A stretch of 64,000 bases of DNA from Paracyclopina nana (taxonomy: Eukaryota > Arthropoda > Copepoda > Cyclopoida > Cyclopettidae): contig JAGUCH010000003.1 in assembly GCA_019096065.1 (NCBI GenBank), forward strand, positions 4,278,001 to 4,342,000, in the 5' to 3' direction. Shown here piece after piece: positions 19,183-56,054 of this stretch (its first letter is position 1; each line of letters starts with the position of its first letter). The translations under genes and the position numbers were made by a program. The notes beneath the pieces were generated by a model, which saw only the letters and a program-made list of their open reading frames with translations, had not been told where the DNA came from and searched no databases.

Positions 19183-20058
19183 TCACTTTTTTAGAGCTCC
19201 GTAAGCAGGAATACTTTTGGTAGCAGAGGTAGAAGCCGAAACTCTGACCACAGGGGCTGATCCACCTCCAACTTGGTCCCATTTCGACTTTCGCTTGGGC
19301 TCGTCTTTTGAACTACTACTCAGATGAGGTATTGTTGTAGCAATGGGCGGTGGCGCTGCAGCCATTTTGGCACTTCTTTCCTTGGCAGCCTTCTCCCTAC
19401 GCTCCATGTCAATTTTTTGCACTTTCGCCAATTCGTCGTAGTAAGACTCTTTGCCAAACAAATGTCCATCATAGAGGTCTTTCGGGAAGTTGGTCCCATG
19501 CTCGTCAATTTCACAGTACTGAATCAGCTTCTCATAGATGCTTGGATTTCGGAAGGCTTTTTTCCTCTGGATGACTGCATTCATGTCATAGCCGTAATCC
19601 TGCTTCTTTCGCCAAGCCTTGCACACCGATTCTTGAATGCGAGGTGAGCACAATTCCGTGGGTTCGGGTGGCAACTTTCCACCTTCGTTCCAGGCATCGA
19701 CTTGAACAGTGGATGTAGACCGGTTTAAACTTGAGTCATGAGCCTTGGAATGTTCGGCTTCCTTTGCCTCTTCGTCTGATTCTAACTCCATTGGAACCGG
19801 CTCGGCATCCTTGTCCTCTTTGTCATCTGTTTCATCTTGGAAGTCTCCATAGGAAACGAGCTGCTTTTGCTTCGGAGTTGACTTGGCCGACGCTGCCTCA
19901 GAATTTGGAGTACCTGTCGCTGATTTGATAAGATGGCTGGGAACTCCAGAGGGAAAAGTCACCGAGTCACGCGTATTCTCGTCGTCCTCATCATTCCTAA
20001 CCTGGTCCTCATCCTCAGAGTCAGTGTAATTTGCGGTTAACGATGCTAACCCTGACAT
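19183..20058 (-). CDS. SAP30BP: SAP30-binding protein (HCNGP-like transcription/splicing regulator)
   Basis: A single exon of 291 aa starts at ATG 20056-20058 (MSGLASL). The N-terminal third is acidic with many Asp/Glu-Ser runs. The conserved HCNGP domain follows: KLPPEPTELCSPRIQESV, then YDMNAVIQRKKAFRNPSIYEKL, DEHGTNFPKDLYD and ESYYDELAKVQKI. The C-terminus has the family's KRKSKWDQ motif. SAP30BP is nuclear and has been linked to the SIN3-HDAC corepressor and to RBM17-dependent splicing of short introns. That last role is notable in a genome whose introns are mostly 45-80 bp, though any special dependence is speculation. Confidence 0.93.
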   Translation of the reverse strand: MSGLASLTANYTDSEDEDQVRNDEDDENTRDSVTFPSGVPSHLIKSATGTPNSEAASAKSTPKQKQLVSYGDFQDETDDKEDKDAEPVPMELESDEEAKEAEHSKAHDSSLNRSTSTVQVDAWNEGGKLPPEPTELCSPRIQESVCKAWRKKQDYGYDMNAVIQRKKAFRNPSIYEKLIQYCEIDEHGTNFPKDLYDGHLFGKESYYDELAKVQKIDMERREKAAKERSAKMAAAPPPIATTIPHLSSSSKDEPKRKSKWDQVGGGSAPVVRVSASTSATKSIPAYGALKK

Positions 20059-20992
20059 TTTCGCGAACAATGTCTGTTTTGTTGTTGTGTTTGCAGAGTT
20101 ACTAGAGAGGCCTTATTTGGCCAGAATATCCGCGTTTTCATAACCAAAAAGCCTTCTTTTAACGCTACAAAAACAGTCTTGGAAAATGAGTATTTGCTAT
20201 GAGATTTGTTCGGTTGAAATCCCATGGATCATTGGGAGGGGAAATTTGGTAGAAATGTGTGTAGTTATTCGAAATTCTTATGTCATTTTACCTTTGGACC
20301 CCATTATTGGCCATTTGACTACCCAACCAGACATTTTCCCAAGTTTTCTGAAAGTTATTGTAACGTGTTAGCACTCCTTCGTTTTACCCAGGTTGAGTTT
20401 ATGTCGTTTTGTAACAGTAACTTCCGTACCACCTATGAAAAAATTTGAGAAAAATCGAATGTGACACGGAAATGTATTTTCGATTTTACTTAGGTGTCAA
20501 GGTAATTAATGTTACATAACGACTTGAACTCAATGTTGATAAAACGTATAAGTTTCACTGAGGGTTTTTTTGCCGTATGAGGGCCCAGAATTTCTGGTTG
20601 GGTAGCCATCACCTTTGTTGAAAACTTACTAAATGAACCTTACTGCAATGGGCAAAAAAATGAATTTTTAAAATAATTATGTCCTAATAATTTTTGTCCT
20701 TAAATAAGTCTTTTTCTCAGAAACTTTTGAAGAAACACAGTTTTTAAAAAAAGTTTAAAAAATCTAAATATTATCAATGCTAACATTACCTAGCTTTAAA
20801 TAAAAAAGGGTTATTTGTTAATTTGTTGTTGTTTCGTGAAAGTAACAATCTTTGACTGATTCTGTGAACAAAAAGAAATAAAAAATAGTCGGAGAAGGTT
20901 TCAGATTCTGCTCCAAAGCCACCCACTAAAAATCAATGTTTTAGCCTTAGAAAGCTTTCATTTCATCTCCCAAGAGCCCCATTATCGTATAT
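20059..20992. other. Intergenic region upstream of SAP30BP
   Basis: About 930 bp of AT-rich sequence. It includes the SAP30BP promoter side and a 13 bp inverted repeat pair described separately (20319-20605). No coding feature was recognised. Confidence 0.35.
20319..20605. repeat. Inverted-repeat pair, possible small MITE
   Basis: CTACCCAACCAGA at 20319-20331 is matched by its exact complement at 20593-20605, framing 287 bp of AT-rich sequence. The flanks share only CCAT at the expected places (20311 and 20606), so a target duplication is not convincing. It may be a degraded MITE, and a match of this length could also be chance. Confidence 0.35.
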
Positions 20993-21419
20993 ACTAAATA
21001 CCGCGCACAAACACAACGCAACGCACACTCCCCACTAAACAAAATGAAACTTTAAAAAGTCACTGTGAAACTTTAGGTAGCCTTTTTGTTTTAAGTTTAC
21101 AAAAAGTTTCAAAAATGAGTCATTAAGTTGCCTTGAATTTGAAACTTTAAAAAGGCTTTTTTTTGAACCTTATACGGTTGAGATTTCAACCATTATATGG
21201 ACATTATTTCTGAAAGGTTATGTACACATAATTGTCAATCTTTAAGTAGACGTTACACTGCATTTCATGACATTGTAAAATATGAATCGATTTTTTCAAT
21301 AATGACGCTATGAGCAATTAACACCAATTGAAAAGTTGACAGCAATGACAGCAATTAATTGTTTTTAGTTGTCATTTCTTTATTACATGATAAATGGCCA
21401 ACAAAAGTTTGTTACATGA

Positions 21420-24400
21420 TTACATGTGTAAAGTGGAGAAAGAGACATTAATTAAGATTGATTTGTGTAGCACCCCCTTGCCAACTACGTCTGTTTTTGG
21501 TATTTCAACTGTCACACCTTCTCTTTTAGCCACAAACCGCAAGACGCCGATTCTGTGATACTGCAAGAACGGAACATCATCGTTGTAGTATCGTTCAGTG
21601 ATGTACGGCTTACAAACGTATGCATCAGGTTTCACATCCACGACTTCGAAGAAATTGTTGGAGCCATTGTGCCTCGCATAGATCAAAGTGTCTGAAGAAT
21701 TGGACATTCGGTTCTTGCTTGAGATCGTGACTCGCCTCTTGCATTTGTGGTCGCAGAACTTGTTGATATAGCATTTTTGCATTAAAGTTTTGCTAAAGGC
21801 ACACGTATTGTTTGTTATTATTTTCTTGATGTATTGAAAACTCGCTTCGAATGGTTCAGCACTTATTTCGTCTAATCTTTTTTTCCTCCGCACCTCGGGT
21901 AGATGATGGAAAATGTGCGTGTTGTATGTGCAATTCGTGGCTTTGAAGGCTGTTTCATACATTCGGTACCAATTCTGATGTAGTGTTTCAAGGCACACCC
22001 CAGCGACAAGAAGTGCATCATATTCAGGCTGCGGTAAAAGAGCGGCCATCATCAAATAGGTGAAGAGCAGCCATACTTGTCGAATGAGCTTGTTTTTCAA
22101 GCCTGGCAAAGCATTCGCAAATGCTAAGAACCCGCAAGTAGCAATACTGATATATTCTTCGGCCTTATAGTGAATCAGTGATGTCGCCATTTTTCGTGGC
22201 CGACGATTAAATTCACATGGTATTAACATTTGCGACCAGTCTTCATCGAAGGTGTCAACAATGTCTTTACTTGCCTTTGAAAACTGCTCTTTTCCAGATT
22301 TGGGCTCAAGAATGGTGTTAATTATTTTCTTGCAGACACCCAAGCCTAAATTGTGAAAAGGTTCGATGTCACAGGTTTCTACCAAATCAACACCTGGGTC
22401 TTCAATGAGGACAGACACATCTTTCACCCCAAAGGTAACCTTTTCAGATAGTGGGGGTTTACCTTCGTTAGCCTTGATCTTGTCGTAGATGTCTAGAAAC
22501 TGTGAGTGCGAACGTCTCGCAATGCCAACAGTGTTAGCGGGGTAGTAAACTGTGCTCGAGCGTTTTTCATCATCATCAGTCCTTTGATATTTTGTTCTCT
22601 TTGCAGTGGGCTCATCGCCATCATTATCATCCAACCGCTGCTGCTGCCTTTCCACACGCCGTCTACGATGCATCTCTTCTTTAGCCTTCCTTTTCAAGGT
22701 TACACTAGACGCCAAACACCGATCACAGGCGCAGAAGCCGGTGTGACCCTTAATGCACTTAATCTTTGCCCTCATTGGGCTATCGGCAATGAAATGACGC
22801 AGATAGAAGCACTTAGCATATGCATCTCGAATCATTAACTGCAACATTTTGAGCACTGATGTTTCCTTGTTCTTGCGGTGAATGAACACACCAGTGGTGT
22901 AGACGGACTCACAATTGGCAAAACGGGTGCACAATATAGTCATTTGATCCACGCCGGACACTGACAAAGGGACGCCATCCATACAGAAATCGTAACTAAA
23001 CATGTACGGCTCTTCAGTGATCGGCTCATCATGGAGTAGTTGATGGTAATTGTAGACATCTTCCATGTTTGAATATGTCCACACAGAAAGCGTCTCATAT
23101 TTGGCACGTGGATATTTGCTTTGTGGATAGTGCTCGCCTTTGTAATAAATCCTTGATGTGAGCGGTCCGTTCCTCTTACGCAGTTCATACTTCATAATGA
23201 TCCTGGGTGTGATCTTAAGTAACCTTCGACGAATGGTTGCATAGCTTTGAAGGCCTCTATAGAATGGATACGCATTCCGAACCGCACGTTGCTTGTCCCA
23301 CATTAGTTTGCTGGCACGCTCTGTCAAATTCAGTTTGCTGCAGTCGCTGAGAAAAGTTCGTTCCAAGAAATCGTTTCTTGCTCTTGATGTTGGTTGCTGC
23401 ATCTCACGTAAATAGTCATTGCAGGTGTCCTTGTACGTTTTATCAGACCTGCTAAAGTGGTAGTTGAAGTCAGCCTAAGTGAAGGAAAAATTTTCCTCCG
23501 ATGAGTTGCTTGATGTTTGAGATAAGTTAACCTCGGGCGCAGAAAAGTGGACACTATCATGAGCATTGCCGTCATCCTCCTCAATTGAGATGTTATCGTA
23601 ACATTCAGCAGTCATTAATGGTTCCTAAAATTTTATTATTTTAGCAAAACGTTTATAATCGCAAATTACAAAAGAAGTCTAAATCACTCACTTCCTCGTT
23701 ATCTTCTGTGGAATCAGCCGAATCCAGAATGACGTGAATTGGGTCAAGTCCGCCCAAGTCATCATCTTCGCTGTTGTTGTCTTCGTCATCTGCTTCCTGC
23801 TGTTCAAACTGAAGCACATCATCATGCTGCAAGAACGTGTAATCAAATTTGCGTTTTCGCCTCATCCGCGCAGTCTCAATGATTTTGTCCTCTTCTGCAT
23901 TGAAGTACTCTTCATCTTGCAGTAGCTCGTCAGTAATTTCTGTCTGCAGCGCCTCTTCTCTGTCAAATGATTGCTGATGGAACGTTCCTCGTTGCGATTC
24001 ATTGTACTGGCTTGCTTCGTCCATCAATTCCTCGTTAATGGCTGTTTCAACACAAGCTGCCACTCGTACCTTTTTAGCAGGAATATAATATCGTTGATAG
24101 AAATAGGGATCAGCTCTCTTGACATGGAGTGGGTCAGAGGTGAATAAATTGTCAGGAGCTAGGTACGACGGACGTGTCGGTTCATAAATGGGTCCATTGC
24201 GGTATCTCTCAAATGCAGATTCTCCAGCAGATGGGCCTGGTGCTGATTGAATCATTCCTTGGGCATTAAGGTACCGTCTGCCTTCTTCTAATATTTGGTT
24301 CAGTTTTTCACGTTCTTTATGAGACTGTGGTGGGGCTGGAAATACCATTGATGCCGCTTGTTCTTCTTCTTCAAGCTCAGTCTCCGCTTCATCATTCTCG

Positions 24401-25083
24401 TCGTCGCCGCTGTCATTCCCTGTTGGGCCTTCCTCGTTGTCACCGTCGTAATAGCCAAGTTGAGACAATGAATTGCCTCTATCAACAAAATAATTTTCGT
24501 TGTCATCATCTCCTTCAAGTTGTTGCGACAGGCTATTGCCATGATCCACGTAGTCAGGTTCAGCAGTAGGTGAATGACTAGTTGAAGTAGCAACAGCTGC
24601 ACTTGTTGATGGCTTGGCGCGTTTCGATGTGAACACTTGTGACGCATCATCAACAACGAGGGACACTTGTCCATCACTATCGATTATTGGCGGTGGAAGT
24701 GGAAGCAGCGCTTCGCTGAACGTAACCTTTTTCACCTTTTTCCGAGATGAGTCTTTATTCTGACCTTCGGTTGACGTATCAGACTCGCTAACATGAGTGA
24801 CAGGACTGCTGCTGCCGCTGTTGTTGGAACTGCTGTCTCCTGTGTCATTGCCGCCAAGCTGTTTTCGCACCTCTTTGATTAGCCGCTGATTTCGCTCCAG
24901 GAAGTTCCTATCATCTGGCGTGATGAAAGAGACGCCGACTTTTCGCATTTCCATTAGCAGATTTGGATTATTTTCATGGCCGGCCTTTGCCAAAAATGAA
25001 GCAAATTCGGCATCCTGCTTTCTCAATTGACGTCGCTTCTTTTGTCGCTCTGCCGGTGTCAGGGACGGTCTCGATCGTGTCAT
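21420..25083 (-). CDS. EnSpm/CACTA-like transposase of element A
   Basis: Three exons (25083-23692, 23624-23532, 23474-21420), with introns of 67 and 57 bp, give an uninterrupted 1179 aa frame. An in-frame TAG just before exon 3 is removed by the second intron. The first 500 or so residues are acidic and low-complexity with a basic start (SLTPAERQKKRRQLRK). The catalytic part has the blocks of the widespread animal EnSpm-like transposase family: MDGVPLSVSG (first Asp), DSPMRAKIKCIKGHTGFCAC with CDRC (Cys pair), EPFHNLGLGV (the D-x-MH position, here Phe for Met), CEFNRRPRK, HYKAEEY, and HIFHHLPEVR...LDEISAEPFEASF. It would cut and join the element ends in the nucleus. Catalytic residues are inferred by position only. 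Confidence 0.8.
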
Positions 25084-25630
25084 TTTTGCATACCTGAAAT
25101 GAATTTAATATATCGTTAATGAAATAAATTAAATTCACGCCAATTTAATTTTTCCGCCAAATCACCATTCGTTAAAAATTATCGGCCGGAATCATCGCCA
25201 TCTTTACTTCAACGACTGAATAAGGTATTTTTTAGGCCTCAAAGCGGGAATCTTTATTAAAATCTTACGTGTACGAGCACAAGGAATGTCCGGATTGATA
25301 TTTCGTCGTCACTTAGCCTTAATGGCCACCTAGAAAATCGTTTCTTCAAGTTCGATAATTTTGCGCTCGAGTAATTCGCCGAAAATTGTAAGATTATGAG
25401 CAGCTGTTGTTAATACTGTGCAGCTGCTGCCGCTATAACGCTCTGCCGAGCCCGCCCGCACATCACTCCACTTACGAAGCCGCGCCGGCCGATTCAGCCA
25501 AAACTGCCCCGCTCTCTATGTACTGCCCAAAAGCGACGCCAACCAAAATTCATCCGCCATTTTTTCAGGTAAAAACAAACTTGACGAAACCTTCCAAAAC
25601 TTCGAAAAGCTACGATAAAGCTGACCAGGC
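25084..25630. promoter_or_regulatory. Central bidirectional promoter of element A
   Basis: 547 bp lie between the two divergent start codons of element A, and both genes must be driven from here. The half nearer the transposase is AT-rich and the half nearer the second gene is more GC-rich. No repeated operator-like palindrome as clear as that in element B was found. Confidence 0.55.
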
Positions 25631-28600
25631 ATGTCTGGGAATGACCACCCAGATGTCATTGACATCATCAGGACTTCGTTGCCGACATTTGCGACCCCTC
25701 ACGCAGTCTACGACCGCGTAATTGTTTGCGAAATCGATAGCGAGTCGGCATTCAAAGTTATTCCTTTGAATTTCACCGATGTGGCTGGGAAATCGTTCAG
25801 GGATATCTACCGATTCAACCCAGAGTACGAGTTGCAGCCGAACAATCGCATCGCCTTCAGAAACGTACTCATTGGGAGTGATGGAACGTCGACTCGTTGG
25901 GCGATTTTCGCGAGAATCGAAAAAGGTAACATTCATATACTTTTACTTGACACGGAAAGTTAACATTACCACTTATATAGGCACCAGCGAAAATTTCATC
26001 AACACGATCATCCGAGAGCTCAACGCTGTGTTGAGGAAAGTCAAGCCCAACCAGCGACAATCCTACTACGTGAAAACTATGGTTTTCAATTGGTTGGAGA
26101 AAGTCGCCAAGGACTTCAATTACCCTGCAAGGGATGAAAAGGCCAACAAATTCTTTGTGGCTAGATTTGGGGCAAGGACCACACGAGGACGAGCAACGCC
26201 TTATCCCATGACTGCAAGCGAGCCTGAGCCAGAGGTAGTTATTAAAATAACGTTAACTTAAATACTCAAATGTGACCTCTTTTTCTATTTTGCAGCCTTC
26301 ACCATTCAAAAAGGTACCGACAACGAAGACTCCAGCGGCCAAAAAGTCCCCTGTGAAGAAGGCAGTGAAACGTTTGGTTTCACCCAAACCTGGTCCTTCT
26401 CATGCTTACAAGCCTGTAGTTACGACTGTTAAGGGCAAGTCTGGATCGGCAAAGAAAACGCTTGGCGGAAAAGCTACGCCAGCTAAGAAGACTGCAAAGG
26501 CGAGTCAACCAACGATGGCAAAGGACGTCCAAGTTAAGATTGCCAATCTTGATTTGGCCATTAACTTGCCACCTGGGACCACATTATCCCCTGCCAAGAT
26601 AACGACGCCGGACGAAGAGTCAGTCATTCCCGAGTACAGCATCGCCAGCACAACTTCATCAGAGGATCAGCAAGACGACGATTTTGTACCTCCGCCGCTG
26701 GTTAGACAGCTGACTATGATGCCGCCGCCAGAGTCAACAGATAGAACGACAAGGGTGCAAGCTGCCAAAAAAGCTGCTGAAGTAACTGATAAGGTCAGTG
26801 AACCATCTCGATTCGTAAAAGGACAACCAAAGGCTAGCCCAAGGCAACAACTCACTATGCCACCTAAGCAGGCTTTGCAAGGTGAGAACCTGCTGACAAG
26901 CTCATTAGAAAGAGCCGTTGAGGCAGCTCACATCAGCCCAAGCGTGAGCCCAATTACGCCTGTCAGCATGCAGGCACTGGATGTTTCTGCTGCTCTCCAC
27001 AACATCAAGGATGAGCTTTGTGCTCGCATGGATGAGCATGGCCAACAGATTGCCGTTGACTTTGGAGCAGCCCTAAAAAACTTCTTAAGAGATGAGCTGC
27101 CAAAAGCTATTCGTGATGCGATTGCTCGAGAGAAGTTGGCAATGGCGAGCGGGAAGGCACCAACTGACGCTGCTACTAAGCAGACTTTATCGGTAAGTGG
27201 TTAAAAATCTATGATAAGTTATCAAATCATTAAGCTACCTTTTTATGTCCAGAAAATGGACGGAAAACTAGACAATGTCATTACTAAGCTCGATGATATG
27301 GCAAAGAACCAGAAGAAACTTGACGACAAGGTGCAGTTGCTTGGGGAAACTGTTGCAGAGCGCAGAGCTACTGCAGTTGGAATGATTGCGCAGATCCTGC
27401 CATTCAAGACATGCGGGCGCCAATTGGACATCTTTTTTGCCTCCTCACTTTGCCGCAAGTATCTCCTCTACTACTTGCAGCCGCTTCTTGAGTGCTTGGA
27501 TGAAACCAACTTGATGAGTGCAATTGCCAACAAAGTCATCAAGAACATCCTGTGCCCATTGGCCGCTGGACATTGCGCCTTTGGTGATACTCCAAAGTAC
27601 GTTGTATGTTTACCTAATGCTAACAAAACTAAAACTTTCTCCCTTTTTCAGTGGCATTAGAAAGATGCTTTGCTACAAACGTGTGTTGCCTCAGCCCTTT
27701 GCGGCATGGGTTCTTGGAAGCGTCATCCAGTACGTCCGAAAGACTTATGACTTGAGAGGCCAGTCAGTTAAGGAGAACTTCCTCTCCTGCAAGGGAGCGA
27801 TGCAGAACAAGTTGTCGAATGATCGACAAAAAATTGTCAAATGTGCAATTGAGAATGCACCGACTGTTGCCGATACTTGTGATGTCCTCTACAACCTCGA
27901 CATGGAGTTCCGTGCTGACATGCTTGTAATGTTTCTTTGCTCTTATTTTACGCCAAACAGTAGCTTAACCATTTGCAAATGTTTAGCACGCCATCCCAGA
28001 GGAAGTGACGGTTATGACTCGCGCCGAATATGACGCCCACATCAAAGAGCTGAAGCCGGTGGAGCGTAAGCTGGAGGTGGAGGAAAGAGGAGCACGGCCG
28101 GTCAATAAGGAGTACTCTAATGACCCCGACATCATCTTCAAAGATGCTTTGGAAGATGCTAAGAGTGTCATCTCAGAATTGGATATGTTCCGACTCATTA
28201 GGATTCTCGAGGTCATTACTAAAGAGAAGAATCGGTTCAATGAGACCAATTTGACTGTCGGGGTAAGTGAAACAAACATTGCGCAGGACAGAATTGTCAG
28301 TAAATGATTGAATCATGTTTCAGATCGCCAAAGAGTATGATGACCTCGTCGTCAGTGGCCAACTCGAGCTGAAGGACGCTGTACAGCGCTTCAACATGAA
28401 TGACGCCAATTTGTTGGCGGATGATGACGGCTTGGCTGAGCTGCCTCAAATTGATCCGGAGGAGGAGGAGCGCTTTGAATTGCAGGACCCTGAAGAAATG
28501 CTCTCTCAAGAAACTGGCATTAATGATCCAAAGCCTACAACTTCAAGGAAACGTACTGTTGGTGAGCCTGACAAGCCTAAGAAAAAGAGGAAAAGGATCT

Positions 28601-29252
28601 GCACATCAGCTCGTTCTCAAAGGAAAGCCGACAAGAGGTTCAAGAATGTGCAAGCAGCTAACAAATCTAGCACCGTCGACGAATCACGGGTAAGTGCTAC
28701 TTTTTAATCACACGTCAGTAGCGTTCAAGTTTCAATAATGACTGTCTTAGGATGAAAGAGAATTTGCTGCCAAAATGAAAAGCGTCAATGAGATGAAATT
28801 CAAGAAATTGCAAAAGAAGCGTAAAGAAGAAGAGGACAAGTACGAGTCCGGGAATGAGACTGAAGAGGATGAAAGCGAAGAAATGGTAGAGGAGGAAAGT
28901 GAGGACACTGACAGTGATGACCAGTCAGCAGGAGAGCCTGCTGAACAAGAACAGCAAGTTGCTGAAGAAATGAATGTCGCCAGTCCACAAGACGACAATG
29001 CTGCAATTGATGACAATGTGGCCAATGAAGGACAAGATGCAAACGCACCCAGTGCTGATCCTCTTCCTCCACCTGTAAGCCCACATCCTACTAGCTTTTA
29101 ATAACCTTTTCAATCATGCACAGGCTACATTAACTTTGTAATCGCAACTTTTACAATTTTACTTTGGAGAATTTTTACAACTCTAATGCAATCAATTTTT
29201 AATGTTACTTATGAAGTTCATTCCATTTTTACAGGCCGAATTTCTGGATTAA
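25631..29252 (+). CDS. Second (accessory) protein of transposon A, unknown function
   Basis: Nine exons keep frame for 1015 aa: 25631-25925, 25981-26234, 26296-27192, 27253-27596, 27652-27925, 27987-28262, 28324-28689, 28751-29074, 29235-29252. I cannot name a family. The layout is: an N-terminal domain of about 98 aa beginning VYDRVIVCEID; a helix block RELNAVLRK...VFNWLEKVAKDFNYPAR; a Lys/Pro/Ala-rich linker resembling histone-H1 tails; a coiled coil (KLDDMAKNQKKLDDKV); a helical domain starting IAQILPF and running to FGDTPNGIRKML; then a charged C-terminus with NLS-like KKKRKR and a very acidic tail. The VYDRV, NWLEK and PF...FG-x-x-PN blocks recur in the second gene of element B, with two introns at the same site and phase. 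A DNA-binding partner of the transposase, like TnpA of Spm, is the likeliest role (inference). Confidence 0.78.
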
Positions 29253-30665
29253 GATTATTTGCGATGCCATCATCATTGAACCTCCGGCCATTCGACTCAC
29301 CTGAAAAACAAGATAAAGACAGCAAAATGATTTGAAGAAACATTTCAACGGATAACTAGCAGCGATTAGCACAATGGTGCGAAAAAGAGGAGCAAACGAA
29401 AATTTATGTGGTCAGCAATGGCGCCACTACAGTGAAAAGCAGCAGTTGCGAGAAATTATTGTGACGAATGATGTATGGCTCCTCATATTTCTTATTCATT
29501 ATGATATTGAATATTGGCAGAAGCGCATTGAAATGAAATCATTTCAATGATATTAAAGTAACTTTCATGCCCAAAATATGCGTTCAACAATAAATATATG
29601 CTATTTCAAAAATCATCACAATTTCAGTTCAATTTAGGTATTTTTAAGGTGTTACATGATGTAAACTTAGTAAGCCAAAATAGGTTAGGTTAGGGCAGCG
29701 GATTTCAGCGGGTAGGGCCCGCCTGCTAGGGATCCCTGGCAGGGTTTACTCGAAAAGGCTACATAAAGTTTCAATTAAAATGCAGAGTAAGGTCTACAAA
29801 AAAGTTCATTGTGACTCTTACTTGCGTTCTGAAGTAATCCATAAATCGAATCTTTAAAGCCTACATAAGCACTATTTAAAGACACCATTTAAGTTTCAGT
29901 TAAGGTTCAAAATCGTATGTTGAGCGTTACTGTATACAGGCTTATAAGTCTACTTAAAAGTTCACGATTTGAGTCATGACCGAAACCTTACACTGACTTT
30001 CGTGTTTACTGGGGCTACTAAATACCGCACACTACTAAATACCACACACAGCAAGAAAAAAATGCAAACCACAGTAAATTCATCAGTTTTGGCGTAAAAA
30101 CTCATTTTCATTATTGGAACCAGGCTATAGCTGGTTTGTTTTCTTTTTTTGAGATTGTTTTAAGGTTTTAAGAGTAATTTTACTGCTTTTTTTAGAACAA
30201 GTATTCACTTAGTGTGCGGTATTTAGTATGTGAATACTAAATACCGCAAGATGTAAATTTGGTTCAAAAGTGACATGTTTTGCCAAATTATCAATTTAGA
30301 AAAATAACTCCGAGTGGCTTGTGATGCTACTATGCCTTTCTGATACTTCGCAAGTTAGCCAATTTGGGGTAAAAAATGTAACATCATTCGGTTTAATTTC
30401 ATCCTTTAATTGTCAATTCACATCATTTTTTGCACAGATTCTTTTCAAATTATATGCTTCCTCCATTACAGAAACACATCCTTTGATTTATTCATGACTA
30501 TATAGCTTATCATAAAACTCAGTAAGGCAGGCGGTAAGCAAAGCAAGGCACTTTGGAAGCTCACAATTCAGTAAGTATTGAGCCGATTGGAGGGTTTGAT
30601 TAGTTCATTGATACAATATGATATTAAAAGTAGTGTGCGGTATTTAGTAGTGTGCGGTATTTAGT

Positions 30666-31967
30666 AGTCGTAAGAATTTCCCTAAACTGCGATGACACAT
30701 ATAAGGGCCCTCATAAGGGCCCGAGGGTCTGAGGACAAAACCCTTTGGCACAGTGAGCAACCCTGGGCTAGACCTTACAAATTATCCTTAACATTTCCAG
30801 ATAGCTCTTAGTACCTCAAGACTCACTCTTCACTTTAGCGAGATTTCCACAATTGTTTTCATATTGTTAAATGTTTGCTATGAAACAAGGGAATGTGAAA
30901 AGTGGTAAATTGATAAAATAATCTATCATGAGGACTACCTTCAAAAAGAGTAAGTATTCAAATATGCATGCATTTACCCTGTCAATTTCATATTGAGCCC
31001 TGACTATCGATTCAGATTGCCCGTAATTAATTCTAAATGCTTACGCGATTTCACTGGGTGAAAACTGCATGCATATACCGCAAAACGAGGAATGTGTTTG
31101 ACACGAAGATGCATCCAATTTTCCGTGGGGTCATAAAAATTCTTGCCCGCGGAGGCAACTAGCAAATCAATTTGGTGTTGCAATAACTGGAGCTAAGTTG
31201 ATTAAACCGAGATTCCTGCGTCTGGTTCACAGCCCCGCAAGTGGAATTTGGGTATTTGGCACCCACAGAAATGAGCCCTTGGGCCATTTCAATTTGCTCC
31301 TGGCAAGAAACGCGTCTCACGCCTGTCAGCTTTGAAAGGGTTCGTTCTGTTGCAGGGATCTCACCATAACTTATGGCAGAGCAGAGCTGTGGGGGTCGTT
31401 AAAAAAAGGTTTGACCCAGCCAATTTCTGAGCTGCAGCCTAATTATAACGGCGGAAATTGTAGTACTACATTGCGGACCCTAATGTCTCGGTCAATTGCG
31501 CGAGGATTACCGCTCGCCTGCGCGGTGGTACAAGGTGCTCCGAGATTGCAGACAATTTGAGTTTCTGACCGCCAAATTGTCTAACAAAATTTGAGCAAAA
31601 ATGAACTGTCCACAGTGGGGCAAACATTTATGGCGCATTCATCCATAAAAGGGGGCTATGGTTTCTTTTTTCAATAAGTAGCAGAAGCAGGCACTTTTCT
31701 CCATCAAGATTGCATTTTTCGGTCGTCGATGCAATCACCGAATTCCTATGTTGCTGCTCAAGCATTTTGTTGGGTGAAAATGGAAGGTGAGACCGGTGGT
31801 GGTGTCTCGGTGTCCCGCTGTGCACAATTCAGTCTTCTTTGAACGAGGAGCGCCTTGCCATACCACAGCACTTCTACACGGCCAACGCTATTTCCAACTC
31901 TTGGTGTGTTGAAAAAGTGGCCAGTGGGTCTTCAGCACCGAACATGCCAACAACTGCTTGAACAATA
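30666..31967. other. Intergenic region upstream of the four-jointed homologue
   Basis: About 1.3 kb between the ACTAAATACC repeat element and the first four-jointed codon. The second half (about 31020-31960) has higher GC and less repeat character than its surroundings. As fj is a patterned developmental gene, this stretch is the natural place for promoter and enhancer sites, but no specific site was identified. Confidence 0.4.
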
Positions 31968-34900
31968 ATGGTAAACATCCTAGACTAATGAATTACACAA
32001 ATCTCTGAATTCATTGTATATTTGCAGGCTGACGACTACGCGAAAAAAGGCGAATTGCCACTATTCTACTATGACGAATCAGCCAAGCATTCTATGACGA
32101 CCAGGCGAAAATTGCTCTGCTTGCTATCAATAGCGGCTCTGGCGCTCACCAGCATACTGCTCATCAGCGAGCAATTACTAATGAGACACTTATCAAGGAG
32201 CAGCGCCTATGATGAAGTGACCCTTCAAATTCTACTCCAAGAGACCGGGTCGCCGCTAGATGGCGTGCTAGACGACCCCAGCCTCTTCTGGAATGACACC
32301 CTGGAAAAGTGGGTGTCTCCCGGTCCCTCTGAGGACCAAGTGCAGCTCCAAATGCAAGCTCTGCGCCAAAGCATCCCAGTGAGGGCGGACCTGCCAGATT
32401 GGCTGCATTGTGGGCGAGAGAAAAATAGGCTGATCCATTTCAAGGATGGGAGTCAGGCGTGCGCGCGCTTCCGGCCTCGCCATGACGAGTTTGTCCAGGG
32501 CGAGGTCATGGCCTTCCATCTAGCGAGGCTTCTTCGCATCTCTCACACTCCAGCCGTCGTTCTTTCTGAGGTATGCAACATACTTTGTATTTCACACGCG
32601 CACTACAATTATTTCTGACTCCTAATGGAAACTCGGGAGTTGGGCTCGTTGCTTACGCGCAAAATTGAAAGTTACTATATTACTATGATTACAGTAGCAG
32701 TCCAATAGCATTCGGCGAATTTAAAAATATTGCCTTTCAAGTAATTTCTATTATTTGCCATATTTATGATAATCTGCCAAAAGATAGTCGTACGTAATGA
32801 GCCGTCCCTTTTTACATTAGGGATGAGTGTAACTTGAGATTTTCTTACAAATGGCCATGGATGAATGTGAGCATCCGGCTGCGCAGAAATGGAAAAACAT
32901 TGTACCCCACCAAAATAAATCGGGTCATTTTTGGCGACGTCGACTCAAGGTTCTCTCAAGGATTATTGACTTGATCTTAAATATTTTCGACTTGTATTTG
33001 CCAACCAAGGAGATGATTTTAAGATTGAAGTACTTGGCACATTTAGAATTTTTGTACTTTACAAGTCAAGGCCAAGTCGAAAATTAGTACGTCAACCTGG
33101 CGCTGCCGTACTACAGACGGCAGATTCTGAAAGTACCAATAATAAACCGCTTGTTGATCTTGGCATAGTTTGGCGAGATCCTTGCAATCCTCAAGTTGTC
33201 TACATTTAGCTTTTGAAATCTAGTTGCTGCCAAGGAGATGATATATGGCAGAGTTTTTAGATTTTGCATTGAATTGGTGCCAAATAATAATGAAAATATA
33301 TTTCTCTTAGCATATTCTTGTTAATTTTCTTAATATCTTTCAATAATTTGCATATCATAGTCAATTACTAAATAATAATTGCAACCGCCTCGAACTCTGA
33401 CGGTGGCGCGCACGACGATAGACTGGCATCATCTTCAAAAATCGGAATAATTGGCTATTAAGACCTGCCGAGGCTAAGGCGATAATCGTAGAGTAGAGCT
33501 CATTCACTTGGCCTCCTTCTGGGAAGAGGCTCCGCCATCAGATGAAGAATCGGTAATGTATTGGCTTGGAATTTCGGAGATTTCGGCAGCATTTGCCGAG
33601 GGAGTCTGAAAGCAAATGTAGAAGGGTGTAAAGATTTGATTGCATGCTTATTGGTAAAAGGAAAAGTCAAGATTAAAGGAATAAAAATTGCATGATTTCT
33701 TAAAAGCAAGGAATGTGGGGACTCACTGGGGGACTAATCTCCTCTTCTTCGTAGTCAGACTCGTAGTGGGTGACGTCGGCCTTTTCAGCATCAGCCTTGA
33801 ATAAATGAAAGAATCATGTAAGTATGGCAGATTATTGGCAGCTCCTTTCAATATACTTACTGTTCCTGGTGTCGGCGGACTGTCTGGCTCAAAGGCCGCA
33901 CTCAAATTTTTGACAGCCTTCTGCCTTTTGCCTTTGGCATCAACTGCGGTTGCTTTCTTGCCTGAACCTTTCAATTTCACGCCTTCCACCTGTACGTCAG
34001 GCAAGTAGGAAGAGGCATCGGCCGAGTACTTCTTGACCAAAGTGTTGATGTTGGTTGTCTCATTGCACACTTCCTTGTACAACCTTGGCAACTACAGTCA
34101 AATATAAATAGGTTACAATCTGAACTTACATTTCTCAAGAGAGTATTTGCTTTGAAAGTGCTGGAACTTACCTCTGGTAGATTTTTCAGTCGCATAATGC
34201 TCAAGTTCTCCCAATCTTGTCCCATGAGATGAGCTGCAACAATGACGTGCCTTATCACCTCCTTGACATCCAACAGTTCATGGCTGTTGTTGTTGAGAAC
34301 TGCCAAGATCTCCTCGCTGCTGGTAGCAATACCGGTAAAGGCTGCTTTGCCAAACTCGCTCCTCTTCATCGTTGCAGCCAGGTGTTCATCAAAGCTCGGC
34401 ACCACCTTCTTGGGATCTCTATAGTGATAATTGGCTTGGTGGAACTCGTAGTCAGATTCCGCAACTGCCCTTGCTGCTTCTTCAATGTTGGCCGACCGAT
34501 TTCCAGCAGTAGTCACCATAGTGCCACGATCAGTATTAAACATGGTGGCACAAAACTGGTCAATGTCACTGATGTGCTTGCCCTCCGGTGCATCTCTCAC
34601 CTTGTACAAGTCTTGGAGGGCTGGAACGATGCTCTTGTCAATCATTGAGTGCACACCATCGGGAACCGGGCGCTTGATGAAAAACAAGTTCTTGAGAGAG
34701 CTGTAAGAGCAAATAGAAGCGTAGCAATTCTTTCTTAACATGGCAAAGTTGCAATGGCACTTGGGGATCAAAAATTACAATGAATACTTAATTACTTAGG
34801 GTTTTTCCCAAAGATCATGTGAGCTCGAGCCAATGTAGTAAACAATGTATGCATGACACCTTTCGCCATCGTGTAGTTGAGCGTTGACAGGGGCTGACCA

Positions 34901-37900
34901 CGGAAATAAGGCAGGAGGAAGTCTGCCACTTGCTCCTAAAACATGAATTAGTACAACCACTCGTGTTTTTTGCCATAGTATCGAAATGATTATTAAGTAC
35001 CTGAACAAAGTGAAATGCAAAGTAGGCGTCGCAGCCTTTGCCCATGAGATTGAAAGGGATCAAACGCAACAAAATGGCCCTTGCCTTAGCGCGAACGTCA
35101 ATGTTTCCCAAGAATGTCTTGATGGGACTATTCTTAACTTGCTGAGACACATCGATCATCTTTTCATTCATGGATTTAACAGTCTTTTTGACCTCCTAAT
35201 TGCAATTAAATATCACAATAACTATGTGTTTTGCTACTCTTAATGTCAAGATCAAGTAGTCAACTTACCAGGACCGAAGCAAACTTGTTGTCGAGTTTCT
35301 TGTTCAATGTGGCCTTGTCCTTGTCCATGACTCCTTTCAAGTCCTCAATCTCGTCTCGCACAGCAGATTTAATCTGGATGAAGAGCATCCTCAGGCAATG
35401 ATCGAGGTAATCCTTCGTCACAAGTGAGTTGCCGGCTAGATTTGGTGGCTCCTAAATGTTAATGAAGGTCAATGTGTAAGTACTGAAGATTGAAGCAATA
35501 AAGCAAACTCAAGAATATTACCTGGCTCAAAACCTCTTCGTCCTCGCGAGCTAGTGGACGTCGAACGCTCCTGGTTTGAAGCGACGTGGATGGTTGCTGC
35601 GCCGTGAATGTTGGCTACATTATATGAATGATGAATAAATGATGTTGTGTTTATTTCAATATCAAAGTGTGCGGAAGACTTAAAAAAACTTACCAAGGTT
35701 GATGATCCTTGAGTTGCCACAACGCCACTAGTTGAGGGCTCCGACGACTGCAAATAAGTGAGCATATTAAGGTTACTCATAAACTCTAATCAATAACTTT
35801 AAAGATGAAACCAAAAAGTAACTTTTAAATTGCGACATAGATATGCTTACTTCTAAAACCAACGAGCCTGTGGAAGTCACATTGAAAGTAACGTTGAGGT
35901 CGTCAACGTTTTTGCCTCGAGAGACGTCAAGCAAAAGTTGATTAGGATTATCCATAAGAAAGGTAACATTACTGCCTTCTCGAGCATCAAAGATGTTACT
36001 TGTGACATCCTGTGACTCCTCCTGAACGAAGCCAGTATCAAGAGATGATGGCGTGACATTTTCAGAGGATGCAATGTTGGTGGCTCTACTAGTGCTTGCC
36101 ACATTCAGCATCTCTTCAAAAGTCGTCAATCCAGCAGAAGAGCTCCTTTGGAACGACTCGATCTCTTCTTGAGTGGCAATGAAACTTGCAGCCTTCGATG
36201 TTGACGCCATTGCCTGCTCTTCTGCCTCTTTTGCTGCCCTTTCGGCACGATCCTGTGCGGCCTTCTTCAACGTTTCTTCAAATGCTCTTTCAGCAGCCTC
36301 ATGTGCTTTTGCCTTTGCCTCGGCTTGTTCTCGAGCGGCCCTAAGAGCTATTTCATGAGTCAAAGAGGCTTGCTCTTTGGCCTTCTCTTCTGCCTGTTGA
36401 CGAGCAATCAGTAAAGCTCTTTTCCTGGCGATGGCTTCCTCTTCACTCTTCCTACAAGCTTCTCGTAGTCGCTCTTGCAAAGCTTCCTGCATAGCAGCTG
36501 CTGCTGCTGCTTCCTCGTCCTCAACGTTCTTCTTGTTCTTCTTTCCAGGTGAAGACGCTGCAGAGGATTGTACCGAGTCTCGCAACTTCCTCTTGCTGCC
36601 AACAACTCCTTGCGTCGTCGTGAGAATGGCAATGCCATCGTCGATGTTTTCATCCGTGTCAATTGGCATCGGCTTGCTCTTGGCTTCTCTTCTTGTCTGA
36701 ACCCTGACGGATCTCATCTCAAATCCACTCCTCTGGCGCCGTTCGTACAGGAAGTCCTTCATATACTTCTCCAGCCAATTCTCCACCATTTCGTCGTAGG
36801 TCCTCTTACGATCTTCGTCAGCAGCAGCCTCAATCTCATTGTTGAGCTCCCTGATTGTCCCCGTCAGTCGGAATTGCTCGACGCCTGCAAAATGACAGTT
36901 TCTCAGTATAGGTAAATGTCAAGATATTAGCTGAGATCAATTAGCATATACCTTGCTCGACGCGGCAGAAGACGAATGCCTCCACTCGTCCATTTTCGGT
37001 GTGCAACATGAATGGTCTTCTTCGGCCGTCAAAGTAGAGTCGCCGAGTCGAGACACCGCCGTAATATTGGTCCAAAGTCTTGCCTTCTGGCGAGGTCCAT
37101 GTCGAGGTGACGTAGGAAAAGACGGGCGATTGACTCAAGCAGGCTATTATGACCCTGTCGTACACACCAGGAGCCTTCTTTTCGGTCGATTGCGACATTT
37201 TGCACTCGATTCTCAAAATAATTTGACTCTTCGCCGGCGAATTTTTAACCGTCTGCGATTTGGCGGATTTTTCAGCCGCTCAAATATTAAATTTAATATA
37301 TTTTTAACGGTTCTTCATTGATACATAATTTTTGACTTGACAAGTCAAGGTAATGGCAATATTAAAGTAGTATACCTTTAACTTATGATGTCTTCGCTGC
37401 AGCTTCCCGCTTCACAAATTGACTATATTAAACTTGACTTGCCAAGTCAATGTCAAGGTGAAAATAATATAGACAGCTGAATGTTTACTGTTTGTTTATG
37501 TAACTGCTTCTAACATCACTAATGCACTTGAAAAGTAAATTGTGTTTCTATGCATTTCAGATTTCCGTTTGGATTGTCGTCAGACTAGTGGTTTCCGCTC
37601 GTCATTCAAATGAAAATTGCAAATCGACGAGTCCGCCATGCCGAAGGCAAAGCAAAAAACTAAGGGAGCACCAGGAGCGAAGAGCATGAGAACTCTGCGA
37701 CAATGGCAGCCGGTGAACAGGAGGCGAACGGCTCGAATGCTCAAGAAGATCAACATGACGTTGAACGTGATCAAGCAATCCGTGTCTACTGAGGTTCAAG
37801 TGCTGACTCAAATCGACAATATTCGAACTCGTCGCAGGTAAAAACCTAGTCACGCAAGATTTAGGCGATAACTACATGTAAACTTAATGCATCATTCGTC

Positions 37901-40900
37901 CTCTTTCAGTACTGAAGGCTTGAATGAAGTCCCTGAACGGATCGCCAAGCTTCATGCTCAAGAAAATGAGCTTTTGGAGTGCCGCAAGCAGATTGCCGCT
38001 GCCTTGGAGAATGAGTTTAACTCAGATATAGAGAGTGACGACTCAGATGTGATTGTCGTCAAGCAGCAGTTGCCTATTTCTCGCAGCATTTCAGTCCTTG
38101 ATGTCATGCGTGTTCCATCCGCAAGCTCAACGCAATCTATTCTCGAGATGGACTTGGCGCAACCTCTGCCGATGACCAATGACTTGCCAGATCAAGCAGT
38201 AGCCGAGGAATCCGATGATTCTGAAACTCGTTCGGTCATCCCCGAGCTTGAGAATTCTACTGAAATGTTGGAGCCTCTACGCACTGACATTTTACATGTC
38301 AAGGCAAAGCTGGTCGACACACTGTCTTCTTCGAGTTGTGATGAGACTTACTATGATGTCAACAATAGCTCAATGAACGAATTCATCACAATGGAAGATG
38401 AGTTGACCTTCTTGCCAAGTCAAGGCGTTGTGTCTAACGAAGACATCATCAACGACGAAATTCAAAGCCAGCGTGAGGCCAATCAAGTTCAAGATGCCAG
38501 CCTTTTCCCACGTGGCGACGATGGTGAAGAGTTGCCGCCCGAAGTTTTGGCTGAAATGTTTGAAAACATTGATCTGGATCCTAATGTTGACGAGTTCGCA
38601 ATTGGGCTACCAGAGGAGCAAGTCGAAGTGGACAGTCAAAGCCTTGCTGCGCCTGGAAATCGTGTCAACTATGAGCATTTCAAGGACATGGCGAGGCAAG
38701 AGCAACGTTTGGATGAGCAAGAAGAAAAGAACAAATTGTTCTTTGAACTCTTTGATGCTGTTGCTGTTGACGGATACGTGACAAGGCGAGCAAGCAAAAA
38801 CTTCTTCAACTTGTTTAGGGCATTTATGAGCGACCGCAATCTGTCCTGCTATGAAACTTGCAGGAGGAGATACTCAATTGGCACTCCACCTGTTGTAATG
38901 CACTACGAGTTCAAGAACCTTTTCACTGATGAAATTGTGCGAACTTCTGGCGAGACTTTCCCAAGAAAGAAGTTTCCGCGGGACACTTGGTTGAAAATCA
39001 GCGAATACGCTACTTGCGACATCCAAGACATCTGGAATCATTCCAAAGATTGCCATCTTCACATTTACCAGTACGTGCAAAGTCGAAGACTAGTCTTGTT
39101 TATGGATGGACTCCCTCTATCAAAGTCTGGCGATGAGCAACTGAATGTGGTGAGCGTGCGCATTCCACCTTGCCGCAACATTTACGTCTTGGCTATGCAC
39201 ATTTATCGAAAGGAGTCTGGCTTGACTCCCAACAGGATCATCCAAGGAATCATTCGCGACTTTAAGTACTACAAGTTTGAGATCCGCCAATTCATTGGTG
39301 ACGCACCAGTGCGCAGCAAGATCCGAGGCATCAAGCTTCACAGTGGCACTTACAGTTGCGAGTTTTGCTTTGCGAAAGGTGAAAGATGCGAGCGCAAACA
39401 AGTGTTTGCTGCCAGCACGTTTGAAGAGGAAAAGAGGACCAGCTTCTGGTATCACGACATGGCAATCCAAGTGGATCGACATGGAACGGCCTACTTCAAA
39501 GCAGAAGAATTAAGGGGTATGACTGCTGGCACACCATTGTGCTTGATGCCTCAGTTCGAGCAAATGAAGCAGTTCCTATTGGAACCAATGCACAATTTCT
39601 CAGGCTGCATTAAACAATTCATCCGCTTGATGCTTCAATTGCCTAAGACTCCTCAGAAGAACTTTACTGCTCGACAGCAGAAAATCTTGCGCAAGTTCGA
39701 CAAACGCTGGCAGAGCATCAAGCTCCCCAGGGAGTTTAACAGGAGATCGAGGTCATTGTCTGGATGCTTCGTGTTCTTTAAAAGTCAAGAACTAATCTCC
39801 ATGGCCATCGCTGCTCCTTTCGCCTTTGCTGAGTGCTTCGAAGATCAGCTTGACCAGCCAGCAAGAGCTTGTTGGCTTCAGTTCTGCATGATCATGAGAG
39901 CGTGCTGCATGGATGATCAAGCTTTGTGGATGAACGATGTCACCAACAACTTGGAAATGTCATCAAGGCAAACCTACCAAAAGTTTGAGAACGTATTTGG
40001 CCTTGCAAACTGCAGTTGGAATATCCATAACTACTTCAGCCATGCCTACTCCACTCGTCTCATCTCTAGATATCCTGCGCTCAGTGCCTTGGGATTTGAG
40101 TCGGACTTCAACGTCCTCAAGAAGTGGCTCCAGGCTAATACGCCAAGCTTTGCTAAGCAGGTGATTGAAAAAATCTTCCGTGGAAATGCCATGAACCATC
40201 AATGCCAAAACATCGTTCGATTCAATCACTTTGATGCAACAAGGTATTGCGACAACCTGTGCTATACAAGCAACCAAAACTTCTACAAGATCGTTGACAT
40301 CAAGTCGACCACCTATGTTGTCCATCCCATCAATACTCGCCCCTTCAAATGCATTGATACGCCCCGTATTGACTGGTTTGTCAATGGCATCATGCTGTAC
40401 CAAGGTTTAGGCGAGGAAACGCTCACCATTGACAAGAAAGATGTGACTGCCAAGGCTGTAATTGACGGCAGGTACATCCTGTCGATCCCATTTGATGCTA
40501 TGTTTATCTAAGATATGCAGCTGCCAATATTGAGAAGTAATGTCGATATTCATGTGATTCTAATTTTGATTCAGGCCATCCAGCGATGGACCTTTTTTCC
40601 CACTAAGGTGCAATGAGTGAATTATTCTAGTGTATTGCTTTTGCAATAAAAGTCGACATAATAATGTGTTAAAAACTAATCCAATTGCTAAGTCTACTAA
40701 TTCATTTCTCAGATGTCCGTTGTTGCTCGAGTACAGCAAAACTCATATATTTTCATTTCTCAAGTTTTTTTACTTGTCATCTATTGAAAATTGAGACACC
40801 ATTGACGTATTTAGCTATCATTAATTAAATCAACATCCCATGCTAATTGAGTTGACGGTTCATTGAATCTCCTTGAAGTTGGCGGTAAACTACAGATTTC

Positions 40901-42565
40901 TTTCCATTTTAAGTACCTGGCCAGGTTAGATTCCAAGTCGCCGTCATCGTGATAGCCATTTCACGGAAAACTGAAATTAAAGTCAAGATTAACGAATGGT
41001 TCTTGCAATGTATCTACTTATTGTTCTTGGAAGGATGAGTTTGCCGAAATCAAGGAGATCATTACGTAATCAACATTAAGAATAAGAGATCTTGAGATAT
41101 CATCTTGTTTATTTCTAAAGTTTCTTGGAAGAAATCTAAAAAATGTTTCAAGTCGAAAACAAGGAGTTTCCTTTGGAGATCGAGGTACAGAATTGACCGA
41201 TTTATTTTGGTGGGGTACAAATGTCTAGGAATGCAGCGGTTTCAGTTCAATCTTTAAAATGCGGGCTTGCCGTAATTTATTGCGACAATTATGTCCGCAA
41301 AAATGGAAAATTACACCGTTCTTGGCAATTTTTGAGTGAGCCCCGAAGCGATTAACCTATGTACTGTTTTGTACATGATCGAATCATCTCATTACGATCC
41401 AACAGAATTTTGGATGAAGAAGCTGATTTGCACATATACTTTACTACCTTTTTTGTCGAGAGCGCAGCGGGTGACCAGACGATTGGGCGCTCTCACCCAA
41501 ATTCTCCAAGCCCAGATGCATTCCTTTTTTTAATTAGCTAATTTATAATGTTCTGTTGAGCAGCAAAGTTTTACACGACGTTGCCTCGGGCCCAGCGATC
41601 TTATCTGTTATATCTCGATGATTTGAGGCCCGCCGCGAGCATGAAATTGTTGATTGGAACACAGCAGTCTGTTGTCTACCAACTACAAAATATCTCTCCA
41701 GTTGAAAAGGGATGGTTTAATGGGCATGCCCGACATGAAAACCTGTCAAGACTGACATGTTCTCTCCACCAACTTTTTTTTACAATAAATATCACTACTA
41801 TAAATATGTTTGCAGGTAAACTCGGAGCTTTGGAGCACGGTCTCTGTACCCGAGTGGCCAAAGAGCAATGCAATTGTGGCTTTGATTGAGTGGCTGCCAC
41901 ATCTCACCAAGACGACAATGCCTGCCATTTTGAGGAAAAAATTGACTGCATCTTTCAAAGATCAGCCACTACGTTCAAACTCTGACGAGCTTGCCAGCTT
42001 GGAAAGAAGCGATTTGGAGCTCTTGGTCCAGTGGAGTGACATGATAATATTTGATTATCTCACGGGAAACTACGACCGAGTCGCGAGCATGCAGGTATAC
42101 TTATGCTACATATGGCTATAATAGTACACGTTGCTCTATACGAATTCTTTTCATGTCCAGGATGGAGCTGACAAAGAAGGCAAGACAGCCATTATGAGAG
42201 AAACGATTCACAATTTGGCATTGTCCGAAGAAACCGGTTCCTTGTGGTTTCTTGACAATGAATCGGCATTTCTCGACGCTTACTCACTCTTGTACGACAA
42301 GGGATCTGATGATAATGGGTTGCGGTTTCAGGCGTTCCACGAGCGGATGCTGCGTACGATGTGTGTCTTTAGAAAGACCACTGTGCAAAGGCTGTTTGCG
42401 CTGAAGAATAGCCCCTGTCCTGATCAACTCTTGCTGGAGTTTGTCAACCAGAACGAGCCACTGTTCGACAAGTTGCCCAAAATCCATCCCAATTCGGTCT
42501 TCCGGGAGCACTTTAGTCAACGACTCGGCCAAGCTTGGTCTTGGATTGAACAGTGCCATAAGTAA
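31968..42565 (+). CDS. fj: Four-jointed homologue (Golgi cadherin kinase)
   Basis: Proposed exons are 31968-31970 (start codon only), 32028-32570, 41816-42094 and 42161-42565, giving 409 aa in frame. Four-jointed phosphorylates Ser in the cadherin repeats of Fat and Dachsous in the Golgi and so sets planar polarity and growth. The protein has a short cytoplasmic tail, a type II membrane anchor (LLSIAALALTSILLI, about residues 31-45), WLHCGREKNRLIHFKDGSQACARFR, QGEVMAFHLARLL, WLPHL, LVQWSDMIIFDYLTGNYDRV and WFLDNES, matching Fj/FJX1 blocks including the catalytic DNE. The start codon is the last three bases of exon 1 (ATG then GTAAAC). If that is wrong, the ATG at MTTRRKL in exon 2 is the alternative. 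Intron 2 is 9245 bp because transposon B sits in it. All other introns here are near 60 bp. Confidence 0.85.
33504..37198 (-). CDS. Second (accessory) protein of transposon B, unknown function
   Basis: Eleven exons join in frame for 958 aa: 37198-36952, 36884-35851, 35747-35694, 35614-35522, 35451-35269, 35195-35001, 34935-34796, 34700-34172, 34091-33861, 33795-33727, 33605-33504. Order of parts: an N-terminal domain with VYDRVIIACL; the block RELNNEIEAAADEDRK...VENWLEKYMKDFLYERR; a long Ala/Glu/Lys/Arg coiled coil (about residues 150-270); Ser/Thr-rich stretches; a second coiled coil; a helical domain from RLIPFNLMGKG through DFLLPYFRG to FGKNPNSLKNLF; and an acidic C-terminus. The first intron (phase 1, after the N-terminal domain) and the intron in FG-x-x-PN (phase 2) match those of the element A protein. 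The function is unknown. Self-association through the coiled coils and DNA binding are plausible inferences. Confidence 0.78.
37199..37637. promoter_or_regulatory. Central bidirectional promoter of element B with twin 17 bp palindromes
   Basis: 439 bp lie between the divergent start codons. The palindrome TTGACTTG-N-CAAGTCAA occurs twice, at 37332-37348 (centre A) and 37434-37450 (centre C), 102 bp apart. Half-sites recur near the element ends: TTGACTTG at 32966-32973, CAAGTCAA at 33062-33069 and CAAGTCGA at 41149-41156. A protein that binds both the promoter and the subterminal regions would fit, as TnpA of maize Spm does. Confidence 0.65.
37638..40511 (+). CDS. EnSpm/CACTA-like transposase of element B
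   Basis: Two exons (37638-37837 and 37910-40511), with a 72 bp intron, give 933 aa without interruption. The first ATG in frame is at 37638 (MPKAKQK). The basic N-terminus is followed by an acidic region and then the transposase core: MDGLPLSKSGDEQ, GDAPVRSKIRGIKLHSGTYSCEFC, EPMHNFSGCIKQF (the D-x-MH block, here E-P-MH), PREFNRRSRSLS, FFKSQELISMAI, and HNYFSHAYSTR. The same blocks in the same order are found in the element A transposase, with low overall identity. The length difference (933 against 1179) lies mainly in the acidic N-terminal region, which in A is a separate long exon. Confidence 0.8.
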
Positions 42566-56034: not shown

Positions 56035-56036
56035 GA

Positions 56037-56054
56037 TGGCGCGGGTCGTTGGAC
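56037..56054 (+). other. Primer-binding site for minus-strand synthesis
   Basis: TGGCGCGGGTCGTTGGAC directly follows the 5' LTR by two bases. It starts with TGG, the complement of a tRNA CCA end, as reverse transcription primers require. The matching host tRNA was not identified. Confidence 0.6.

Follow-up and report, generated by a model that had tools for sequence, protein, structure and literature searches.

Two CACTA/EnSpm-like transposons with a conserved, divergently read partner gene in the copepod Paracyclopina nana

A 64,000-nucleotide stretch of the Paracyclopina nana genome (assembly GCA_019096065.1, contig JAGUCH010000003.1, positions 4,278,001 to 4,342,000 of the forward strand; hereafter the window) was found to carry two transposons, element A at 21030-30014 and element B at 32905-41215 of the window. 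Each holds a transposase gene and a second, divergently read gene, here called the partner. A first-pass annotation of the window had described two families of 8-9 kb elements, and the sizes obtained, 8985 bp for A and 8311 bp for B, agree with this. All gene models use GT/AG introns and were built from sequence and conservation only.

Element A begins with CCCCACTAAA and ends, in inverted orientation, with CCCCAGTAAA. The target site duplication (TSD) is CT, at 21028-21029 and 30015-30016. The transposase gene lies on the minus strand at 21423-25083 (exons 25083-23692, 23624-23532 and 23474-21423), comprises 1179 codons, excluding the stop, and encodes the DDE, C(2)C and H(3)H residues. The partner gene lies on the plus strand at 25631-29101 and encodes 1018 aa in 8 exons (25631-25925, 25981-26234, 26296-27192, 27253-27596, 27652-27925, 27987-28262, 28324-28689 and 28751-29101). 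Its N-terminal part (25631-26234, plus strand) consists of a beta domain in exon 1 (YDRVI...FARIEKG) and the exon 2 segment (NWLEK..KDFNYP), separated by a phase-1 intron. A helical domain 2 (PF..FGDTPN..KR; 27253-27925, plus strand) contains a phase-2 intron. The central region between the two start codons, at 25084-25630, is a putative shared promoter. Element A was observed within or beside a repeat of TACTAAATACCGCACAC units in both orientations (20991-21011, 30015-30049, 30209-30229 and 30633-30667), and from these units it looks nested in an older repeat.

Element B has a 19-bp perfect terminal inverted repeat (TIR), CCCCACCAAAATAAATCGG, reads CCCCACCAAA at both its left and right end and is flanked by a TSD of TA at 32903-32904 and 41216-41217. 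The TIR forms part of a longer perfect inverted match of 24 bp, which takes in the TA duplication and the next three bases outside it (TTGTA/TACAA). The partner gene is on the minus strand at 33504-37198 and encodes 958 aa in 11 exons (37198-36952, 36884-35851, 35747-35694, 35614-35522, 35451-35269, 35195-35001, 34935-34796, 34700-34172, 34091-33861, 33795-33727 and 33605-33504), the end of the last exon being placed at the stop codon. The transposase gene is on the plus strand at 37638-40511 (exons 37638-37837 and 37910-40511; 933 aa). Between the start codons lies the putative shared promoter, a central region at 37199-37637 with two copies of TTGACTTG.CAAGTCAA. The transposase-side subterminal region occupies 40512-41215, and its last ∼102-116 bp recur (79-82%) in two relatives that carry genes and in three non-autonomous copies. 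Open frames at 31992-32618 and 41804-42565 flank element B. They read like exons of one host gene, presumably four-jointed/FAM20-like, and gave no Pfam match; because of this reading, element B may lie inside an intron of that gene.

Several particulars of the first-pass annotation could be compared directly with these models. The divergent two-gene layout was confirmed, with start codons back to back 548 bp apart in A and 440 bp apart in B, the central promoter remaining putative. The CCCCAC(T/C)AAA ends assigned to both elements were found at both ends of B but not at the right end of A, which reads CCCCAG (CCCCAGTAAA). The partner lengths, given as 958-1015 aa, were correct for B and three residues short for A.

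The residues D156, D221, C240/C243, H463/H468 (H3H in A) and E487 were invariant in 32/32 aligned transposases, comprising A, L061 as the nearest relative of A, and the 30 top-scoring B-type matches (B included), some of them near-identical. They were likewise present in 18/18 transposases in another comparison. This pattern, a DDE triad with C(2)C and H(3-4)H, is that of the CMC clade, in line with the EnSpm-type assignment made from the window. Comparison of 18 transposases with Pfam-A at E up to 1 returned no Transposase_21, and one member matched DUF1258 at 0.0054. A CCCC start was found in A, B, L059, L060, L062, L119, L120 and L121 by an end search that targeted C-rich starts and was therefore not blind; ends of L061 were not found in the stretch examined. 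A 2-bp TSD was present in 7/7 elements whose ends were set independently of the TSD (A, B, L059, L060, L119, L120 and L121). L062 is flanked by CG, equal 2-bp flanks having been required by the search that set its ends. The CACTA termini and 3-bp TSD of plant CACTA elements were not seen, the termini being CCCCAC or CCCCAG and the TSD 2 bp. On these sequence features, A and B are treated as CMC (CACTA/EnSpm-type), TRC-like transposons of a two-gene variant.

Transposases of this type had been said to be known in animals, and such elements have been published. TRC elements (SmTRC1 of Schistosoma, with others in Tribolium and Aedes) belong to the CACTA superfamily and share with A and B the CCC at the TIR ends, 2-bp direct repeats at insertions and a CACTA-related transposase, according to the available portion of DeMarco et al. 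2006 (PMC1636069). The same portion gives 9.2 kb for the Aedes element, which is similar in size. Unlike A and B, SmTRC1 gives alternatively spliced products from one region, and that part of the paper mentions no additional, divergently read gene for such a protein (PMC1636069). In plant CACTA elements, too, there is a second open reading frame; En/Spm resembles A and B in its 8-9 kb length, its two proteins (the transposase TnpD and TnpA/ORF2) and its subterminal repeats, and differs in its CACTA ends, its 3-bp TSD and the production of Spm TnpA by alternative splicing of one unit (PMC4158355 and PMC2613891). Elements described in PMC12730594 likewise have a DDE transposase with C(2)C and H(3-4)H between the second D and the E, and a 2-5 bp TSD, but their termini are mostly 5'-CA..TG and the fungal accessory genes are TET/JBP dioxygenases.

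Partners A and B were found to be homologous by BLASTP with low-complexity filtering. Residues 450-689 of A aligned at 21.5% identity over 251 columns (E 1.7e-12) and residues 25-149 at 29.6% identity over 125 columns (E 6.4e-12). The two segments correspond to the helical PF...FG-x-x-PN part and the N-terminal VYDRV...NWLEK..KDF.Y part, the blocks that the first-pass annotation had named as shared by the two proteins; the alignment outside low-complexity sequence is well beyond chance, the contrary result having been named there as one that would overturn its proposal. The two introns reported at the same site and phase were also seen, a phase-1 intron after the first domain and a phase-2 intron inside FG-x-x-PN being common to both partners.

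The same introns were sought in further loci with a spliced-alignment script, which uses a reference partner and is thus biased towards the reference intron structure. The phase-1 intron fell at the same residue in 18/18 further loci, and in 19/19 with L118 included. The phase-2 intron was at the expected residue in 19/20 loci, the exception being L041, which lacks an intron at that point. In 37/40 additional loci it was no more than 7 residues from the expected site. At L068, L077 and L089 the intron at this site was modelled as phase 0 in about the same place; at L073 the phase-2 intron was 7 residues off in a short model, and the partner of L075 has stops. In L061 all 7 introns of partner A were recovered at most 1 residue off. 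In L062, the relative compared with B, 8 of the first 9 introns of partner B were recovered at most 5 residues off. One extra intron was predicted in the linker of each. At L041/L118 (genome G000, C1:11289600-11293600) the phase-1 intron is kept and one long exon seemingly runs from exon 2 through domain 2 in a 631-codon frame; this partner seems, from its reading frame, to have lost introns kept by relatives.

The genome of 92 Mb in 10 contigs was searched with both transposases, and all locus counts given here are lower bounds. The transposase A and B queries gave at least 72 and at least 116 matching stretches, merging to at least 109 loci, 29-100% identical to A or B. A stop was present inside the matched stretch in 7 of the 109 listed loci and absent in 102. 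Partner relatives were sought independently with five partner queries at E up to ∼0.04, and a partner within 9 kb of a transposase locus was scored for side and strand. A partner relative lay upstream on the opposite strand at 104/109 listed loci, at a median distance of 3.3 kb. No listed locus had solely a differently placed partner, and 5/109 had none. An extra partner query gave weak matches (E 0.008-0.012) at 4 of these 5, each at a distance of 3.3-3.6 kb and agreeing with the other loci in side and strand; the fifth, C8:2083326, is a partial transposase match (query residues 212-622, 426-aa frame). When the nearest partner was taken with two queries alone, 51/109 loci were partnered and 49 of these divergent, the other two being resolved with five queries. 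The first-pass annotation had asked whether the partner always lies divergent to this transposase clade, and whether other copies regularly lack it. Within this genome the former arrangement holds at 104 of the 109 listed loci, and among these diverged relatives the partner was not regularly missing.

Capture of a host gene, or of a passenger present by chance in both families, is a very improbable origin of the partner. Nothing speaks for it beyond the lack of a known function and at least 35 merged partner matches without a listed transposase; such a match could reflect a pair whose transposase escaped detection, a broken element or a gene standing alone. Against it stand the divergent placement at 104/109 listed loci, with transposases as little as 29% and up to 100% identical to A or B, the conserved introns and the matching divergence of the two proteins described below.

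Because the 109 loci include near-identical copies, the number of families is smaller than that of loci. The collection, with many strongly diverged loci and 102 free of stops in the matched stretch, forms an unusual stock of low-copy families and calls for explanation by long persistence or horizontal transfer. At C2:2564543-2587228 of G000, three partner matches ∼8.3 kb apart and two listed transposases were observed, an arrangement that looks like a single element family repeated in tandem.

Selection was estimated from A versus L061 and B versus L062, as had been proposed for copies of the elements. Synonymous sites were saturated, the proportion of synonymous differences (pS) being 0.80-0.81 for the partners and 0.85-0.90 for the transposases. 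Nonsynonymous divergence (dN), in the order A/L061 and B/L062, was 0.31 and 0.37 for the whole partner, 0.165 and 0.154 for domain 2, 0.44 and 0.61 for the linker and 0.13 and 0.22 for the transposase. Domain 2 is therefore under roughly the same constraint as the transposase, unlike the linker. The values, dN lying far below pS, indicate that partner and transposase are under purifying selection, weakest in the linker. The L061 and L062 partner models align over ∼900 codons without stops, with introns nearly as in A and B, and the extra linker intron added by the script in both might mask a minor lesion in that region. The transposase and partner domain 2 gave correlated distance matrices, with a Mantel r of 0.93 over the 14 pairs with both extracted and of 0.84 over 12 pairs in the B clade alone (p 1e-4).

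Near-identical copies were found at several sites. L059 and L060 belong to the same family and lie on separate contigs. Their identity is 99.4% over 7.5 kb, and each has the two genes and CCCCACAAATATTTTT ends; they occupy different sites with TSDs of TG and AA and, by their likeness, show recent mobility. Equal bit scores in the transposase searches suggest further near-identical element pairs. L119-L121 are three 1.97-1.99 kb derivatives of a B relative, 96-99.5% identical, with TSDs of AT, AC and AA. Each retains the two ends and a remnant of the transposase that is not intact, and the absence of any partner match from them is in keeping with mobilisation in trans. At the transposase-side end of L059 (7855-9083) and in L060, repeats spaced ∼238 bp were observed in an array larger than in A or B.

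These copies bear on whether the pairs could be domesticated host gene pairs that are now immobile. Most loci differ strongly from one another, and no match to the left 411 bp of element A was found elsewhere in the genome, as domestication would allow. The TIRs with 2-bp TSDs and the near-identical copies at different sites refute it for families with recent copies, and for the pairs as a whole it is very improbable, though a shade less so than capture.

The partner is instead almost certainly an ancestral, selected part of the element. Its ancestry and selection are well supported within this genome at the level of sequence by the divergent partner at 104/109 listed loci, the shared introns, the Mantel r of 0.93 and the purifying selection, and the earlier proposal of an ancestral gene rather than captured host sequence is upheld.

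The partner protein gave no convincing match in Pfam and none in the PDB by sequence. The fold of domain 2 was predicted from the L041 copy, which has no intron in that part, together with contiguous exon pieces of relatives. The model has a mean predicted local distance difference test (pLDDT) score of 84.4, is almost all helical and opens with a helix of 63 residues (residues 2-64); no confident fold match was found in the PDB. The partner A exon 1 model is a small beta domain with a core pLDDT near 90, the first 19 residues being below 50, and its matches in the PDB were weak only, many of them to tudor-type barrels. Lysine-rich stretches are present in the linkers of both partners. DUF4806, a candidate likeness for the helical domain, did not come up when 20 domain-2 members were compared with Pfam by hmmscan (E up to 1) and was rejected. 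A genome search with PF16064 was uninformative, giving no match here nor in 14 controls.

Against 5.8 billion proteins, the transposase gave one match, P0001 (hhalign to the transposase profile, E 1.3e-46). The collections are believed poor in animal proteins because of this single match, so little weight attaches to the absence of matches for partner B residues 530-870 (E 0.001) and partner A residues 1-200 (E 1). No description of the partner was found in the full-text literature, a search that leaves aside most subscription papers and Repbase Reports, where an unnamed second open reading frame may be present.

The best overall explanation, held with slightly better than even confidence, is an old two-component CMC lineage with a TnpA-like accessory partner. 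A and B would belong to one large, old lineage of cut-and-paste CMC ('TRC'-like) transposons whose founding form, judging from distribution, introns and co-divergence in this genome, included both a DDE transposase and a partner transcribed in the opposite direction. The partner would be a dedicated accessory protein acting like plant TnpA. With its N-terminal beta domain and helical segment and its C-terminal helical domain with a long coiled-coil helix, it may form multimers, attach to motifs that recur in the subterminal and central regions and bring both ends together for the transposase. It might also tune the shared central promoter. In plants, transposition of Spm needs TnpA as well as TnpD; TnpA recognises the subterminal repeats and can either repress the promoter or reactivate it (PMC2613891 and PMC1636069). 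A partner that is present at nearly all loci found, co-diverges with the transposase, has a long helix and a lysine-rich linker and faces the transposase across one centre would fit such a job. By analogy, a TnpA-like mode of action is an evenly balanced proposition. The stronger statement, that the clade is obligately two-component and the partner an animal TnpA counterpart, of independent origin or diverged beyond recognition, and required for transposition, is likewise put midway between doubt and acceptance.

Candidate binding motifs were sought in the non-coding parts of the two elements. The 8-mer repeat AAGTTTCA in element A showed modest enrichment, reached by 16/300 shuffles, and CAAGTCAA in element B, centre included, was reached by 3/300. 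Several results weigh against a TnpA-like partner. The enrichment is modest and was examined in elements A and B alone, and 7-mers in the non-coding parts were not enriched (193 and 50 of 300 shuffles). No sequence or confident fold match of the partner to any DNA-binding family was found in Pfam or the PDB. L119-L121 do not reveal which protein must act in trans, and at least 35 partner matches lack a listed transposase. In plants, TnpA and TnpD share one transcription unit, so that TnpA is not the product of a divergent gene (PMC1636069).

Two other roles were considered. As an anti-silencing or chromatin-interacting factor like VANC of the VANDAL elements, which are MULE-type, the partner would open or protect the promoter and take no direct part in cutting and joining; this is unlikely. 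VANDAL elements resemble A and B in that a DNA transposon encodes a second protein, and differ in being plant elements with a different protein of anti-silencing function (PMC10398659). Slightly less likely still, the partner could complete the transposase, as a transpososome subunit or a nuclear-import or assembly factor without DNA binding of its own. Both proteins co-diverge, and the predicted long coiled-coil helix and all-helical core are typical of protein-protein contacts, as this role would have it; the non-coding repeat motifs hint instead that a protein of the element binds DNA, and this protein could be the transposase.

The usual picture of an animal DNA transposon is of an element with a single gene. 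Since nearly every member found of this diverse CACTA-type clade retains a second gene, assays of the transposase alone may fail, and annotators gain a new protein family to recognise. The ∼109 diverged loci, the near-identical copies and the 2-kb derivatives make the need of an animal CACTA transposase for a partner directly testable.

Two further features of the window were recorded. An HCNGP-like host gene (PF07818, E 2.5e-29) lies on the minus strand at 19183-20112. At 56001-64000 the G+C content rises to 0.53-0.61, against 0.36-0.51 elsewhere in the window, and C + A exceed G + T.
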